Shown here piece by piece: positions 2 through 29,499 of a stretch of 50,259 bases of DNA. The notes beneath the pieces are model-generated. The model did not search any database, was not told where the DNA came from, and saw only the letters and a list, made by a program, of their open reading frames with translations. The position numbers and the translations under genes are program-made. The stretch is from the NCBI GenBank assembly GCA_002701845.1, contig NZXG01000053.1:22195-72453 (forward strand). The letters run 5' to 3'. The stretch comes from Pseudomonadales bacterium. Lineage in GTDB: Bacteria; Pseudomonadota; Gammaproteobacteria; Pseudomonadales; Ketobacteraceae. Positions within the stretch are counted from its first letter, which is position 1. The number at the start of each line of letters is the position of its first letter.

Positions 2-211
2 CCCGCCAAGTCCGGTGATGAAGGCAAGCTGTTCGGTTCCGTGGGCACCAAGGACATTGCCGACGCCATTACCGCCGCCGGGGTGGAAGTGGTGAAAGCG
101 GAAGTGCTGCTGCCCCTGGGCGCTATCCGCAATACCGGTGATTACGAGATCGATCTGCAGATCCATGCCGATGTCACCTCTACCATCAAGGTGTCCGTGG
201 TTCCCGAATAA
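2..211 (+). CDS. rplI: 50S ribosomal protein L9, C-terminal part (partial)
   Basis: The window opens inside this gene; only the last 69 codons and the TAA stop are present. The visible part reads as the C-terminal domain of ribosomal protein L9, with the typical [16 protein letters not shown] stretch at its beginning and a final strand region ending in VSVVPE. L9 binds 23S rRNA at the base of the L1 stalk and helps keep the reading frame during translation. Its position just upstream of dnaB is the usual rpsF-rpsR-rplI-dnaB order in gammaproteobacteria. The start and N-terminal domain lie outside the window. Confidence 0.95.
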
Positions 212-23073: not shown

Positions 23074-23421
23074 CTATCGCTTCCCACCCAATTGCCGCAA
23101 CAAACCCCTGGGAGCGATAGCCATGTCGGTTTTTCCTAACGGAATCTCCAGACAATTGTCCCCTTCCCGGGGAGGCTGGCCCACCATTTCGTCGTAGGCA
23201 CTCAGCTGGCGCAGCACTAACTCTTCAACCTCCAGGTTTTCGAACAACGCCTGCAAACCCAACCGGTTACTGTGGCGTACCAGGCGCCCTTTGCGATCGT
23301 ACACCGGTTGCTCTTCGCCATCGCATTCCACCAGCAGCTGATACAGCTGGCAGTGCAGCGACTGGATGATCACTTTTTTAAGCGGCTGCTTTGCGGTCAG
23401 GTCGGATAGATGGATTGCCAT
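23074..23421 (-). CDS. DUF6482-like conserved hypothetical protein
   Basis: A 115-residue soluble protein. The central region (IIQSLHCQLYQLLVEC, YDRKGRLVRHSNRLG) and the C-terminal LRQLSAYDEMVGQP resemble the DUF6482 family of proteobacteria, whose function is unknown. GGAG lies seven bases before the ATG at 23421, which decides the start over an ATG 11 codons upstream. It follows the MEST-like hydrolase gene by 50 bases on the same strand and may be the last cistron of a RimK-like ligase/hydrolase/DUF6482 unit. Confidence 0.75.
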   Translation of the reverse strand: MAIHLSDLTAKQPLKKVIIQSLHCQLYQLLVECDGEEQPVYDRKGRLVRHSNRLGLQALFENLEVEELVLRQLSAYDEMVGQPPREGDNCLEIPLGKTDMAIAPRGLLRQLGGKR

Positions 23422-23471
23422 TGCCGGTCTCCACGCCATTAGGGGTCTATCCATTCAACCCCAGTCCGGGG

Positions 23472-24428
23472 TCACTGGCCAGGGCTGGGCGCGGTGTCTA
23501 GGTTACAGACATAGTTGCCGGGGACCTCCGGTGCCATCACCGCCTGCACGAACTGCAGATAGGCGGCCAGCACCTGGTCCGGTGCTTCCCACTGCGGATA
23601 ATGGCCGATGTCTTCCAGCGACATGATCATCAGGGGGTGGCCCACCACCTCTTTGTAGCGGGCCACCATGTGGGCGCCGGAGATGGGGTCCCGGGCGCCG
23701 TTGATCAGGCCGATGGGAATCGGGCTTTGGGCCAGCGCCTGCACCCAGCGCTCCCGGTGCGCACGACGTTGGGCCATGTAGTCGATCAGTTTGTGCAGGG
23801 CCAGACGGCCGTTATTGTAATTGATCAGCTCCCAGTAACCCGCCACCAGGTCGGAGGTCGGTTGGGAATCGGGGCCGAAGATGGCGGCCAGGGTGTTGTG
23901 TAATCGTTGCGGGGTCATGCGTTTGGCGATAAAAGGCCCCAGGGGCGAGGCCAGTAATCTTTGGGTGAGTCGGGGGCGATGGGTTTCCGGAAACAGGCCA
24001 CCGTTCAACAGGCACAGCGTCAGCCATTGGGGAGTGGCCAGCTCGTTTTGCCGGGCCAGCAGTTCCTGAGCCACGGTATCGCCGTAATCGTGGGCCAGCA
24101 CATGAAACCGGGTCAGCCCCAGATCCGCCACCAGCGCCTCCACCAGGTCCGCCTGCTCCCGGATCTGATAATCGTAGGGGTAGGGTTTTTCCGAGAAACC
24201 AAAACCCAGAAAATCCAGCGCCACCACCCGAAAGCGGGTACAGAGTTCTGGCCAGATGGCCTCCCAGTCCCAGCTGGAGGTGGGGTAGCCATGCAGCAAT
24301 AACAGGGTAGGAGGCTCGCCTGCGCGGGGGGCATCGGGAGGCGCGCCGCTGTCCAGGGTGAAAATATTGTGACCCAACAGGCGCCGGGTGGTGCCGATGT
24401 TTTTCCACTGCCGGGGGGAATAGTTCAT
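23472..24428 (-). CDS. Alpha/beta hydrolase of the MEST/PEG1-like subgroup
   Basis: A 318-residue alpha/beta hydrolase of the epoxide hydrolase/haloalkane dehalogenase type. The oxyanion region is LLHGYPTSSWDW (residues 44-55), the nucleophile is an aspartate in AHDYGD (Asp114), the acid is probably Asp in NGARDPISG, and the base His lies in DIGHYPQWEAP. HDYGDTVAQELLAR and LNGGLFPETHRP closely resemble, from memory, the vertebrate imprinted protein MEST/PEG1 and its bacterial relatives, whose substrate is unknown. There is no signal peptide. It lies 71 bases downstream of the RimK-like ligase and is probably cotranscribed with it. Confidence 0.87.
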   Translation of the reverse strand: MNYSPRQWKNIGTTRRLLGHNIFTLDSGAPPDAPRAGEPPTLLLLHGYPTSSWDWEAIWPELCTRFRVVALDFLGFGFSEKPYPYDYQIREQADLVEALVADLGLTRFHVLAHDYGDTVAQELLARQNELATPQWLTLCLLNGGLFPETHRPRLTQRLLASPLGPFIAKRMTPQRLHNTLAAIFGPDSQPTSDLVAGYWELINYNNGRLALHKLIDYMAQRRAHRERWVQALAQSPIPIGLINGARDPISGAHMVARYKEVVGHPLMIMSLEDIGHYPQWEAPDQVLAAYLQFVQAVMAPEVPGNYVCNLDTAPSPGQ

Positions 24429-24499: not shown

Positions 24500-25984
24500 T
24501 CAGGGGCGGTGGGCGCGGCGGGCCTCGATCCGGTTGATAAATTCCTGCATGATTTGTTCGTACAGCTGCAGCTCCAGGAACTGATCCTCCACCCCGGACT
24601 CAATGCTGGGGTTGTCGTTAACCTCGATGACCATGGCCCGCTTGCCGGACTGTTTGATATCCACCCCATACAGGCTGTTACCGATCGGTCGGGTGGCTTT
24701 CAGGGCGGCATCCAGCACCGGTTTGGGGACTTCGTAGGTGGGCATGGTTTCATAGCCGCCACTGCTGAAACGGCCGTTGCCGGAACCGTGGTTGTAGATC
24801 TGCCAATGGTCTTTGGCCATGTAATAACGGCAGGCATACAGGGGCTTGTGATTGAGTACGCCAATGCGCCAGTCGAAATCCGTGTACAGAAACTCCTGGG
24901 CCAGAACCAATGCCGACTGGCGAAACAGTGCCGTGACCCGGGCCTCGAATTCTTCCGCGTGGTTCACCTTGAATACGCCGCGGGAAAACGCCCCGTCGGG
25001 AATCTTCAGCACAATGGGAAAGCCAATGTCCTCCATCGCCTGCTGCAGCGCCACTTTATCCTGCTTGCTGAGAATATAGGTCTTGGGGGCTGGCACCTTG
25101 TTGACGTTGAACAGGTCGGTGAGATAGACCTTATTGCAACAGCGCAGAATGGAGGTGGAGTCGTCGATCACCACCATGCCCTCGGCCTCGGCTTTCTTGG
25201 CAAAGCGAAACGTATGGTGATCGATGGCGGTGGTCTCGCGGATAAACAGGGCGTCGTATTCCGCCAGTCGTACGTAATCCTTGCGTTCAATCACATCCAC
25301 ATCGATTCCCAGTTTATTACCGGCTTTGATAAACCGTTTGATGGCCTTGGCGTCACTGGGGGGCAGTTTCTCTTCCGGATTGGTGAGTATGGCCAGGTCG
25401 TAACGGTATTGTTTGCGGGCCTTGGGAGAGCGCCAGATTTTGTGACTGAAACGATCCAGGGCCTCGGCAAATTCCGTTTGCTGGGCATCGGTTTTCAGAT
25501 GATGGGGCGACAGGGATTGCAGCGCTGAAATCTGCCAGCGATCGGTGCAGCGCAGGCTGACCTTGAGAATCGGGCAGGGCAGTTTCTCGAACAGGTCCTT
25601 GGCCAGGGACTGCAGTTCCGGATGGCCGGTGGCGCCAAAATAAGTGATAAAGGTGAATTCTTTGTCACGCCCGTTGTCGGCAACAATGTCCGCGGGCAAG
25701 TCCTGTAATTCATCCAGATGCAGTGTATACAGGGATTTCTGGTTGAGGTCGTTGATCACCCGCAGCGAGGGGATCACATGGTGGTCCCGGGCCTCTCCCA
25801 GCAGGGAGCAGTAATAGCCTTTGGACAGGTACTTATAGCTGCGGCAGAGATTGATCACCCGGGTGCGGGTTTTGCGACTGCCATCCGGCCGGGCCAGGTA
25901 ATCATCAAAGGTGATGACATCCTCGGCGGGAAAATACGGGGCCCAATCCTTGAGGGAATCGACCACCACAAGTAGTTGTGACAT
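24500..25984 (-). CDS. RimK-like ATP-grasp ligase with long N-terminal (RLAN-type) domain
   Basis: A 494-residue protein, much longer than RimK (about 300). The C-terminal half is an ATP-grasp domain: GFPIVLKIPDGAFSRG (Lys327), GVDIK (Asp442) and IEVNDNPSIESG (Glu454, Asn456) supply the ATP and magnesium residues. The N-terminal about 200 residues form a separate domain (LLVVVDSLKDWAPYFPAED) as in the RLAN/RimK-like family. Such ligases join an amino acid, often glutamate, to a carboxyl group on a protein or peptide; the substrate here is unknown. It is divergent, across 186 bases, from the DUF2817 and GNAT-C39 genes, an arrangement that recurs for this family as far as I recall. Confidence 0.88.
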   Translation of the reverse strand: MSQLLVVVDSLKDWAPYFPAEDVITFDDYLARPDGSRKTRTRVINLCRSYKYLSKGYYCSLLGEARDHHVIPSLRVINDLNQKSLYTLHLDELQDLPADIVADNGRDKEFTFITYFGATGHPELQSLAKDLFEKLPCPILKVSLRCTDRWQISALQSLSPHHLKTDAQQTEFAEALDRFSHKIWRSPKARKQYRYDLAILTNPEEKLPPSDAKAIKRFIKAGNKLGIDVDVIERKDYVRLAEYDALFIRETTAIDHHTFRFAKKAEAEGMVVIDDSTSILRCCNKVYLTDLFNVNKVPAPKTYILSKQDKVALQQAMEDIGFPIVLKIPDGAFSRGVFKVNHAEEFEARVTALFRQSALVLAQEFLYTDFDWRIGVLNHKPLYACRYYMAKDHWQIYNHGSGNGRFSSGGYETMPTYEVPKPVLDAALKATRPIGNSLYGVDIKQSGKRAMVIEVNDNPSIESGVEDQFLELQLYEQIMQEFINRIEARRAHRP

Positions 25985-26170
25985 GGATGCCTTCTATGGC
26001 TGCTGATGGTTGAACATGGGGGGCGTTTCCGGGCGCCGTCTCCTGCCAAATATTGGATTTAAGCGGGGCCAAATACAAGTCTTCGGCGGGTTAAATTTGC
26101 AGCCCGTCGCTGGCAAAAAAACGGGGGCGGCGTTAGGCTTGAAGATCCGTGATCAGTCAGAGGTTCCTGT

Positions 26171-27283
26171 ATGTTGTCACCGCTGTTTTCCCATCGGGAA
26201 TTGTCGGTCTTTTCCGATACTTATCGGGACGCGGAGCAGGGTTTTCTGGGCGCTCTGGCGGCCTTGGGACACGCCTCCCGACTGCGTACCCTGCCCTACG
26301 AGGGCTTGGGCCCCGACGGAGAGCCCCTGGCCACCCAGCGGGTCTGGATCGGGGACGGCGATGCCGATCAGGTGTTGGTGTTGCTTTCCGCCGTCCACGG
26401 GGTGGAGGGCTTTTCCGGTTCTGCCATTCAGCAGGATCTGGTGCGGCGCCTGGCCAGTGGCCAGGTGATGTTGCCCCAGGGGCTGGCGGTGGTGCTGGTG
26501 CATGCGGTGAACCCCTGGGGTTTTGCCTGGTGTCGGCGGGTGGATGAGCAGGGTATTGATATCAACCGTAATTTTGTCGACTTTTCACAGCCGCCGCCGG
26601 ACAACCCCGGCTATCGGCAACTGGCCCGTGCCCTGGTGCCCGAGCAGGGCATGCCCGACCCGGCGGATCCGCAGCTGGCGGCTTACCTGGCCGAGCATGG
26701 GCAGTATCAGTTTGAGCTGGCGGTCAGTGGCGGCCAGTATGAGTTTGCCGATGGCCTGTTCTATGGCGGGCTTGCGGAATGTCAGGCCCGGGCCAATATG
26801 GAAATCCTGCTGGCGGAGCTGGACTGCGGCAACCGGGCGTTGGCGGTGGTGGACCTGCATACCGGTCTGGGGCCTTACGGCCACGGCGAGATTATCTGTG
26901 ATCACAGTCCGGATTCCCCAGGGATGGAGGCAGCCCGCCGCTGGTACGGCGACGCCGTGACCGTGCCTGAATCCGGCGCCTCCTGTTCGGTGCCGAAAAC
27001 CGGGTTGCTGGATTTCGCCTTTCATCAGCGGATGGGGCCGCACAGCTGTTACGTGACGCTGGAGTTCGGCACTTACCCGATCAGCGAATTAATGCGCTGT
27101 TTGCGGGAGGATCACAGTGTCCGCCGTCCCGGTCAGGAGCCATTTACCGATCCCCGCGCAGAGCAGGTCCGGGAGCAACTGAAACAGATGTTCTACCCGG
27201 CCGAGCCTCAATGGCAAAGCCTGGTGCTGTTTCGGGGTCGCCAGGTGATTCAACTGGCGGTGCAGGGTTTGATGCATGGCTGA
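26171..27283 (+). CDS. DUF2817 zinc carboxypeptidase-like protein
   Basis: A 370-residue M14/aspartoacylase-like protein of the DUF2817 family. Predicted zinc ligands are His76 and Glu79 in SAVHGVEG and His230 in VDLHTGLG; the catalytic glutamate is likely Glu298 in VTLEFGT. HAVNPWGFAWCRR and DINRNFVDF are further family motifs. There is no signal peptide, so it should act in the cytoplasm. It probably hydrolyses an amide or peptide bond next to a carboxylate. It is divergent from the RimK-like ligase and its stop overlaps the GNAT-C39 start by eight bases. Confidence 0.87.
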   Translation: MLSPLFSHRELSVFSDTYRDAEQGFLGALAALGHASRLRTLPYEGLGPDGEPLATQRVWIGDGDADQVLVLLSAVHGVEGFSGSAIQQDLVRRLASGQVMLPQGLAVVLVHAVNPWGFAWCRRVDEQGIDINRNFVDFSQPPPDNPGYRQLARALVPEQGMPDPADPQLAAYLAEHGQYQFELAVSGGQYEFADGLFYGGLAECQARANMEILLAELDCGNRALAVVDLHTGLGPYGHGEIICDHSPDSPGMEAARRWYGDAVTVPESGASCSVPKTGLLDFAFHQRMGPHSCYVTLEFGTYPISELMRCLREDHSVRRPGQEPFTDPRAEQVREQLKQMFYPAEPQWQSLVLFRGRQVIQLAVQGLMHG

Positions 27284-28412
27284 GCCGGCGCTGAGGTTTC
27301 GCTCTGCCGGACAGCATGATCTGAATGCCCTGGTCAACCTGGAGCAACGCTGTTTTGACGCTGACCGGCTCAGTAAGCGCAGCTTCCGCCACCAGTTGCA
27401 GCAGGACCATAATTTGTTTCTGGTGGCGGAACGTGACGCCGAGGTGGTGGGTTATGTACTGGTGTTTCTGCGCCGGGGCACCAGCCTGGCGCGACTGTAT
27501 TCCATTGCGGTGGCACCGGAGGCCCATGGTCTGGGGCTGGGCCGTAAACTGTTGACCGAGGCCGAGCAAATCGCCGCTGAGCGCGGCCGGATGTTTATGC
27601 GGCTGGAGGTGCGTGGCGACAATCAAGCGGCCATCCGCCTGTATCAGACCATGGGATATCGACAATTCGGTCGCTACCCGGATTATTACGAGGATCACAG
27701 CGACGCCCTGCGGTTTCACAAACGGATTATCCCCCGGGAGCGGGTGGAGGAGCATCTTTCCGATCCGGAAGAGCGGGTGGACTACTATGCGCAGACCACG
27801 GAATTCACCTGTGGCGCGGCTTCCTTATTGATGGCGATGCACGATCTGCAGGAAGATGTGGTCTGCGATCAACGGGAGGAGCTGCAGATCTGGCGTGAGG
27901 CCACCACCATATTCATGACCTCGGGGCATGGTGGTTGTGGGCCCCACGGTCTGGCCTACGCCGCGCGCAAGCGGGGCTTCCAGGCGCGGGTATACGTCAA
28001 TCAGCGGGGACCGCTGTTTATGGAGGGGGTGCGCAGCGAAAGTAAAAAGCAGATCCTGGAGCTGGTGCATCAGGATTTTCTCGACAAGTTGAAAGAACAG
28101 GGGGTACCCATCGAATATGGCAGTCTCTCGCTGGTGCGCATGCACAGTTTGCTGGAGGCCAATGCCCTGCTTTTGGTATTAATCAGCACCTATCGTTTCG
28201 ATGGTCGCAAGGCCCCCCACTGGGTGCTGCTGGTGGATATGGACGCTGACTTTGTCTATATTAATGATCCGGATATAGATCAGGATGACGCGGGCTCCCA
28301 ACTGGACAAGCACTATCTCCCAATCCCCCGGGCCAGCTTCGAAATGATGCTGCACTTCGGTCAGAACCGCTTGCGTTGCGCGGTGGTGGTGGAAGCCGGG
28401 AGCAAACCATAA
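27276..28412 (+). CDS. GNAT acetyltransferase fused to a C39-like cysteine peptidase
   Basis: A 378-residue two-domain protein. Residues about 5-150 form a RimI-like GNAT domain with the acetyl-CoA loop EAHGLGLGR (82-90) and AIRLYQTMGYRQFGRYPDYY. Residues about 160-375 form a papain-like C39 domain: Gln173 and Cys179 in QTTEFTCGAA, His315 in APHWVLLV and Asp331 in INDPD make a complete catalytic set. There is no signal peptide or transporter domain, so this is not a bacteriocin exporter. It overlaps the DUF2817 gene by eight bases. Acetylation and cleavage of the same peptide-like substrate is a reasonable inference. Confidence 0.88.
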   Translation: MAEPALRFRSAGQHDLNALVNLEQRCFDADRLSKRSFRHQLQQDHNLFLVAERDAEVVGYVLVFLRRGTSLARLYSIAVAPEAHGLGLGRKLLTEAEQIAAERGRMFMRLEVRGDNQAAIRLYQTMGYRQFGRYPDYYEDHSDALRFHKRIIPRERVEEHLSDPEERVDYYAQTTEFTCGAASLLMAMHDLQEDVVCDQREELQIWREATTIFMTSGHGGCGPHGLAYAARKRGFQARVYVNQRGPLFMEGVRSESKKQILELVHQDFLDKLKEQGVPIEYGSLSLVRMHSLLEANALLLVLISTYRFDGRKAPHWVLLVDMDADFVYINDPDIDQDDAGSQLDKHYLPIPRASFEMMLHFGQNRLRCAVVVEAGSKP

Positions 28413-28434: not shown

Positions 28435-29499
28435 ATGTTTCAGTTTCCAATTGTCGATCCTCACGTTCACCAGTGGGATGTGGCGCGAACGCCGCGAGTG
28501 CTCACCTGGCCCAAGCGCTTGCTGGGCTGGAACCCCCGTCTTTACGAAAGCCTTCTGAAGCTGGCCGCCAAAGAGGCCGACCGGCATTATGTGGGGCGGG
28601 TGGATTACGTGGCATACGATTATCTGCCCGTGCATTACAGCATGGACGCCGATCGTCTGCCCATTTCCCATGTGGTGCATGTGGAGGCACACTGGCAGGA
28701 CAAATCAGCGCTGGGGCCGGTGGGGGAAACCCGCTGGCTGGAGGAGATTTTTCAGGATTCGCCGGTGGCGCTGGGGGCCATCGTGGGGCAGATTCCGCTG
28801 CAGCATCCCCGGGCGGAAGCCGTGCTCAAGGCGCATCTGCAGGCCAGTGCCCGGTTTCGGGGGGTGCGCCAGATGCTGGCTTTTGATAGCGATCCGGGAA
28901 TCATGAATTTTTGTCCCCGCGCGGAGCTATCCCGGGATCCCCAATGGCGCTCGGGTCTGAGTCTGTTGGCACCGCATAATCTCAGCTTTGATGCCTGGAT
29001 GTTCCACCACCAGTTACCGGAACTGCTGGAGCTGGCGCAGGCGTTTCCGCGACAGACCTTTGTGCTGAATCATCTGGGGACTCCCATCGGTATAGGCGGG
29101 CCCTTTGCCTCCTATGGCCGCACCGCGGAAGCCCGGCAGGTGACCCTGCGTACCTGGCAGATGCATCTGCAGGCACTGGCGGAGCAGCCCAATGTCATGG
29201 TCAAACTGTCGGGGTTGTTTATGCCGGTACTGGGCTGGGGGTTTGAACATCGTAGCCGGGCGCCGGGGCTGCAGGAGCTGCTGGACAAGGCCGGGCCGCT
29301 GATCGAGTTCGGCCTGCAGCAGTTCGGAGTGGAGCGTTGCCTGTTTGCCTCCAACTTCCCTATGGATAAGGTGTCGTTATCGTTGCCACAGCTTTATGAG
29401 TTTTACGCCGCCGTGGTGGCGGGCTATGCAGAAAGCGACCGGCGCAAACTGTTCTATGACAATGCTGCACGCCTCTATGGGATAGGGGGCACGCTATGA
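28435..29499 (+). CDS. Amidohydrolase-family (TIM-barrel) metal-dependent hydrolase
   Basis: A 354-residue protein of the Amidohydro_2 type. It opens with PIVDPHVHQWD (residues 5-15), the HxH metal site after the first strand; FVLNHLGTP in the middle supplies another histidine, and CLFASNFPMDKVS near the end is the expected last-strand motif, with Asn in place of the more usual Gly before FP. Relatives hydrolyse lactones or decarboxylate aromatic acids; no substrate can be named. It starts 22 bases after the GNAT-C39 gene and its stop overlaps the response regulator start by four bases, which places it in the same transcription unit. Confidence 0.85.
   Translation: MFQFPIVDPHVHQWDVARTPRVLTWPKRLLGWNPRLYESLLKLAAKEADRHYVGRVDYVAYDYLPVHYSMDADRLPISHVVHVEAHWQDKSALGPVGETRWLEEIFQDSPVALGAIVGQIPLQHPRAEAVLKAHLQASARFRGVRQMLAFDSDPGIMNFCPRAELSRDPQWRSGLSLLAPHNLSFDAWMFHHQLPELLELAQAFPRQTFVLNHLGTPIGIGGPFASYGRTAEARQVTLRTWQMHLQALAEQPNVMVKLSGLFMPVLGWGFEHRSRAPGLQELLDKAGPLIEFGLQQFGVERCLFASNFPMDKVSLSLPQLYEFYAAVVAGYAESDRRKLFYDNAARLYGIGGTL

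Follow-up and report, generated by a model that had tools for sequence, protein, structure and literature searches.

A RimK-like ligase, a GNAT-papain-like fusion and a DUF2817 protein as a candidate writer/eraser module for peptide or protein ends

A 50,259-nucleotide stretch from a Pseudomonadales bacterium of the Ketobacteraceae (GCA_002701845.1, contig NZXG01000053.1; here "the window", G000:C16:22195-72453, from a genome, G000, of 4.9 Mb in 69 contigs) carries three neighboring genes for an RLAN/RimK-like ATP-grasp ligase, a DUF2817 protein, and a GNAT acetyltransferase fused to a papain/C39-like DUF3335 domain (GNAT-C39). The ligase and the GNAT(-C39) protein form a core pair, to which DUF2817 is an optional, lineage-specific addition that has been recruited. 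We propose, with a probability of roughly 0.42, that the cluster is a writer/eraser module acting in the cytoplasm on the end of a peptide or protein: the ligase probably adds amino acids to the peptide or protein, and the partner enzymes could trim and acetylate it.

The open reading frame (ORF) table places the three genes, and the overlap of the last two, where a first-pass annotation of this DNA had put them (Table 1), and its family names hold: all three proteins score above curated Pfam cut-offs. The ligase matches RLAN (PF14401, residues 27-174; 163.8 bits, cut-off 25) and RimK ATP-grasp (PF08443, residues 284-463; 35.3 bits, cut-off 21), the DUF2817 domain reaches 312.6 bits (cut-off 23), and the fusion matches DUF3335 (290.1 bits, cut-off 25) and Acetyltransf_1 (75.9 bits, cut-off 20.7). 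The active-site residues named by that annotation are likewise invariant, D331 nearly so: K327, D442, E454 and N456 of the ligase, together with K285, in 38 aligned sequences (37 of the 38 listed ligases plus the window sequence); Q173, C179 and H315 of the C39 half, with D331 in at least 90%, in 41 sequences (40 of 45 GNAT-C39 plus the window); and H76, E79, H230, R123, N132, R133 and E298 of DUF2817 in 63 sequences (62 of 82 plus the window). In a wider DUF2817 set H76, E79 and H230 are invariant in 85/85, and so are 9 of the 13 positions shown. We take the ligase residues to be the ATP/Mg ligands of ATP-grasp enzymes, H76/E79/H230 to be an HxxE + His zinc site, and the Arg, Asn-Arg and Glu of DUF2817 to be M14 catalytic residues. 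By-eye inspection shows no signal peptide in any of the three proteins.

Table 1. Features of the three-gene cluster and of the GNAT-C39 protein (positions in the window unless given as residues)
Feature	Position	Strand	Details
RLAN + RimK-like ATP-grasp ligase	24500-25984	-	494 aa; ORF call and Pfam
Divergent intergenic gap, ligase / DUF2817 gene	25985..26170	.	186 bp
DUF2817 protein	26171-27283	+	370 aa; predicted M14 metallocarboxypeptidase fold; Pfam
GNAT + DUF3335 (papain/C39-like) fusion	27276-28412	+	Pfam, NCBIfam, alignment
DUF2817 / GNAT-C39 reading-frame overlap	27276-27283	+	8 bases
GNAT half	residues about 15-145		N-terminal-acetyltransferase type
DUF3335 papain/C39-like half	residues 169-372		Q173, C179, H315, D331

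The core pair was traced in 369 genomes of Gammaproteobacteria (family codes shown reach f182). RLAN occurs in 81 of them, with one match apiece, DUF3335 in 62 (57 strong, at least 250 bits) and DUF2817 in 33 (14 strong); the co-occurrence counts omit the five DUF3335 genomes at or below 24.5 bits, the 19 DUF2817 genomes with only matches under 30 bits, and two of 51 DUF155 genomes that fall below the cut-off. RLAN accompanies full-length GNAT-C39 in 56 of 57 genomes, where 12.5 would be expected (hypergeometric P 3e-45, kinship ignored), and lies within 5 kb of it in 53; the two are on different contigs in G060, G199 and G208. The adjacency of ligase and GNAT-C39 is not due to chance; the recurrent association sought among homologs is present across many families. 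Could the genes nevertheless be chance or housekeeping neighbors, their products acting on unrelated substrates? The frequent occurrence of DUF2817 without partners would fit this explanation, which is highly improbable given the tightness of the core pair and a linkage that survives three relative orientations.

How firmly is DUF2817 tied to this pair? The DUF2817 scan took one genome per species and the best 80 loci by similarity to the query, so its fractions are not prevalences: 40 of the 80 have both partners (RLAN plus GNAT-C39 or part of it), seven GNAT-C39 alone, one RLAN alone (at a contig end), and 32 neither. For the seven loci without an adjacent RLAN, six genomes encode RLAN elsewhere, and the seventh DUF2817 sits at the contig end of a metagenome-assembled genome (MAG). 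Linked loci come mostly from gammaproteobacteria (including Ketobacter, Alcanivorax, HdN1, Methylomicrobium, Methylophaga, Marinospirillum, Thiothrix, Thiomicrorhabdus and Porticoccus), joined by one mariprofundal, one kiritimatiellal and one alphaproteobacterial MAG; among named relatives, a Ketobacter MAG has the closest cluster (L091; DUF2817 72% identical, ligase 81%). On the DUF2817 tree the "linked" label changes 3 times, against 27.0 in shuffles, and in the linked loci, 49 with the window, no other gene comes near these three in frequency: the next cluster reaches 15 of 49 (example from Methylophaga) and DUF155 seven. An in-frame ATG or GTG overlaps the DUF2817 stop in 44 of 47 plus-strand DUF2817/GNAT-C39 pairs; outside this count, the genes also overlap by coordinates in L049 and L077. 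Ligase and DUF2817 genes are divergent, as in the window, in 33 of 41 loci, co-directional in six and convergent in two; the ligases of the two convergent loci branch far away in the ligase tree, which suggests separate assembly. The three-gene association expected by the first-pass annotation thus stands in that DUF2817 keeps company with both partners in several orders, and falls short in that DUF2817 is not part of the core: only six of the 57 GNAT-C39 genomes have a full-length DUF2817, five of them adjacent. A weak DUF2817-like protein (25 bits) near the ligase of L089 was left out of the count.

That annotation had also cast DUF2817 as a second, opposing hydrolase. The generic term can be narrowed: the predicted structure makes a carboxypeptidase-like enzyme of M14 fold the best description of DUF2817. 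The model shares its fold and active-site residues with M14 metallocarboxypeptidases (MpaA, REP34 and the pancreatic carboxypeptidases), and in the alignment its R-to-N spacing of nine residues is that of MpaA; unlike these enzymes, the window DUF2817 has no match to Peptidase_M14 (PF00246) at E 0.01. An aspartoacylase-type N-deacylase is a candidate alternative, and such kinship remains compatible with the data: the window protein scores 24.9 bits against AstE_AspA_cat (PF24827; cut-off 25), and aspartoacylases are missing from the 50 entries listed in the model comparison, an absence that does not exclude them. Linked DUF2817s carry K276 in 50 of 51 cases, versus six of 34 unlinked ones. A weak DUF2817 match elsewhere in the window genome (L002, G000:C24:94275-94490) is part of a 344-aa M14/AstE-like protein, flanked by genes named by eye as methionine-sulfoxide-reductase-like and acyltransferase-like.

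DUF2817 is one of several zinc hydrolases found beside RLAN ligases. In a survey of 80 RLAN loci plus the window, neighbors were clustered without prior choice and then classed by home-made profiles (Pfam names of the partner clusters rest on one example each). Type A, with GNAT-C39, accounts for 53 of the 81 loci; type B, with a stand-alone C39-like protein and/or a GCS2 ligase, for 16, of which 13 have an N-formylglutamate-amidohydrolase-like protein (FGase); and type C, with a stand-alone GNAT without C39, for eight, none of whose genomes has a full-length DUF3335 match. The remaining four have no partner inside 3.5 kb: L017 and L048 lie at contig edges, the L087 genome has GNAT-C39 on another contig, and L056 has none at all. 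The ligase tree was built without three of the 81 loci (fragments scoring below 500 bits) and ten of 38 named-locus ligases (near duplicates); its type C label for L103, which retains part of the C39 half at a contig end, is wrong but enters no number given here. Type B forms a single clade (15 rows, SH-like approximate likelihood ratio support 100). The zinc hydrolases are mutually exclusive across the 81 loci (DUF2817 in 5, M14 in 6, FGase in 13); all six M14 loci sit together in a group of 8 rows in the ligase tree and may therefore go back to one gain. We do not claim homology of FGase to DUF2817, because their profile comparison is weak (17%).

The type B order C39 - RLAN - GCS2 - FGase amounts to a second uncharacterized RLAN system, made up of two ligases plus two hydrolases (FGase loci: L037, L039, L041, L044, L053, L054, L055, L057, L061, L066, L068, L075 and L078). 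Like the window, it combines an RLAN ligase with a papain-like protein and a zinc hydrolase, and hhalign (95.6%) shows its stand-alone C39 to be a homolog of the fused domain; unlike the window, it has a GCS2 second ligase in place of GNAT, FGase in place of DUF2817, and an RLAN clade of its own. A gene for a DUF155 (RMND1/Sif2-Sif3-like) protein also recurs beside RLAN clusters (L011, L015, L031, L044, L049, L055, L072, L077, L080, L094, L103, L106, L109, L126, L136 and L157).

What would the window enzymes act on? The GNAT half has a profile nearest to archaeal/eukaryotic N-terminal acetyltransferases and RimI, and its acceptor is thus likely the N-terminus of a peptide or protein. It passes the NCBIfam RimI equivalog cut-off (TIGR01575; 96.7 vs 86.4 bits), and the ligase profile is nearest, among solved structures, to RimK/LysX types (best E 3e-11). 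Both likenesses would suit a module that modifies ribosomal or translation proteins, with a RimK-like ligase, a RimI-like acetyltransferase and, in some lineages, an RMND1-like DUF155; DUF155 indeed lies within 5 kb of RLAN in nine of 49 DUF155 genomes, and the two share 28 genomes against 10.8 expected. This target is nonetheless improbable: the window genome encodes a better RimI (131.8 bits) and a separate RimK-domain protein (225.2 bits) elsewhere, the ligase stays under the RimK family cut-offs (TIGR00768, 83.1 vs 143.4; NF007764, 36.6 vs 331), and this genome has no DUF155. A role for the ligase as a RimK replacement was considered and is unlikely, since the genome carries its own strong RimK-domain protein. 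The fusion, which passes the RimI cut-off while a better RimI exists, risks automatic annotation as a ribosomal S18 acetyltransferase.

Alternatively, the product could be a small acetylated peptide, made without the ribosome as an osmolyte or cofactor in the manner of N-acetylglutaminylglutamine amide (NAGGN): the ligase and GNAT would build it, and the C39 and M14-fold enzymes would recycle it. The NAGGN operon, in the part of the source consulted (PMC8070244), likewise encodes ligase, acetyltransferase and peptidase functions together, the GCS2 ligase added at type B loci is consistent with stepwise peptide assembly, and, in the 12 largest groups of small ORFs, no small protein gene common to distant loci travels with the cluster. 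We consider this explanation somewhat unlikely. According to the same part of that source, a single protein, Ngg, both acetylates and ligates, an asparagine synthase is present, and the peptidase is a glutamyl aminopeptidase; in the window GNAT and ligase are separate proteins, GNAT-C39 scores far under the NAGGN synthetase model (TIGR03103; 30.5 vs 569 bits), this model is not among the best 25 matches listed for the ligase, and the GNAT resembles N-terminal protein acetyltransferases.

The pairing of an ATP-grasp ligase with a C39-like peptidase also recalls the maturation of ribosomally synthesized and post-translationally modified peptides (RiPPs), in which a graspetide-like ligase (graspetide ligases are of ATP-grasp type, as the consulted part of PMC8939145 has it) would act with a C39 leader peptidase. 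Such a function is very unlikely. Among 1782 small ORFs around RLAN loci, a set confined to cluster surroundings, none of the 12 largest groups is spread over distant loci; these groups are limited to near relatives or, by eye, overlap flanking genes. The GNAT-C39 protein has no match at E 0.01 to the bacteriocin C39 family (PF03412) or to an ABC transporter domain. A single-sequence PDB search with the C39 half returned one match, a Clp ATPase fragment (E 1.2). The 186-bp gap contains no small ORF common to distant loci and no promoter-like match, and predicted promoters and terminators are about as numerous as in shuffles (3 vs 2.3 and 6 vs 5.6).

In the writer/eraser module that we favor, the RLAN ligase would use ATP to attach one or more amino acids (glutamate, by analogy) to a peptide or protein in the cytoplasm, at a carboxylate that is probably C-terminal; DUF2817 would strip C-terminal residues and so reset the length; the GNAT half would acetylate the acceptor or product at its N-terminal amine; and the papain-like half would cleave the modified species internally or release the tail. 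In other lineages a different zinc hydrolase, an M14 peptidase or FGase, stands beside the ligase. That all these enzymes share one cytoplasmic acceptor is something we infer.

Several observations pull against this proposal. G154 has GNAT-C39 without RLAN, and a control outside the class, Methanosarcina acetivorans, has DUF3335 without RLAN. Of the 14 DUF2817 genomes among the 369, just six also have RLAN (expected, 3.1; P 0.06, not significant), with the genes adjacent in five. Both RLAN and DUF3335 are absent from 28 of the 31 genomes with unlinked DUF2817 (32 loci), which is why we regard DUF2817 as independent and recruited; the other three have RLAN with DUF3335 adjoining it. In L139 DUF2817 adjoins DUF155 in a genome that lacks both families. 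The C39 half is missing in eight loci, so the module can do without the cleavage that we propose for it. A common M14 fold, itself predicted, does not prove carboxypeptidase activity: Peptidase_M14 matches only four of 63 DUF2817 homologs (best E 1.5e-4), AstE_AspA_cat, of N-deacylase type, matches 18 of 63 at E 0.01, and the profile comparison with the M14 peptidase of other loci reaches only 52%, in a 33-column stretch about the Asn-Arg motif. D244, K276 and Y282, typical of linked DUF2817s, may stem from shared descent. Finally, no substrate, product or phenotype is tied to the cluster.

Of the adjoining genes, an Amidohydro_2 protein (28435-29499, +) starts 22 bases past GNAT-C39; it is kept in the close relative L092 and absent from the other seven loci with gene order shown, and so probably lies outside the system. 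The ligase is followed, on its own strand, by a DUF6482 protein and an alpha/beta hydrolase (23074-24428, -; Pfam), the latter, by cluster label, also retained only in L092 among these loci.

The analysis gives DUF2817, an uncharacterized family, a fold, a likely activity and a set of partners, and reveals more than one kind of zinc hydrolase among the partners in RLAN ligase clusters. Pairs of ligase and carboxypeptidase have the logic of reversible tail modification, and a single substrate, if found, would assign function to several unannotated gene families in many gammaproteobacterial lineages. In eukaryotes, a tubulin tail cycle sets ATP-grasp TTL ligases against M14-type cytosolic carboxypeptidases. 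A bacterial counterpart, in which the ligase would write an acidic C-terminal tail, DUF2817 erase it, and GNAT-papain cap and release the end, is a long shot argued by analogy; K276 of linked DUF2817s would then be in a pocket for acidic residues, a residue that shared descent may equally explain.

How does the cluster compare with systems already described? A 2009 study by Iyer et al. (Mol Biosyst 5:1636) reportedly predicted neighborhoods of RLAN-ATP-grasp, GNAT and papain-like genes, with the same ligase family and GNAT-DUF3335 fusion as in the window. The fusion is in print, in a source that itself cites the 2009 work (PMC10318531, consulted in part). Among the literature matches listed, as titles and abstract beginnings, none reports experiments on what RLAN, DUF3335 or DUF2817 do, none links DUF2817 (PF10994) with DUF3335 (PF11814) or PF14401, and the single one to show DUF2817 concerns trypanosomatid transcription factors. 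An Anbu ATP-grasp operon is another known counterpart, as far as the available excerpt goes. In the RimK-RimB system of ribosomal S6 glutamylation, as the accessible part of its description has it (PMC12239564), the trimmer is retropepsin-like, in place of the M14-fold and papain-like enzymes of the window, and no GNAT is named; the window ligase, for its part, has an extra RLAN domain and falls below the RimK models. The two share their central arrangement, at least as predicted for the window: an ATP-grasp ligase that extends a C-terminus is opposed by a protease that trims it.

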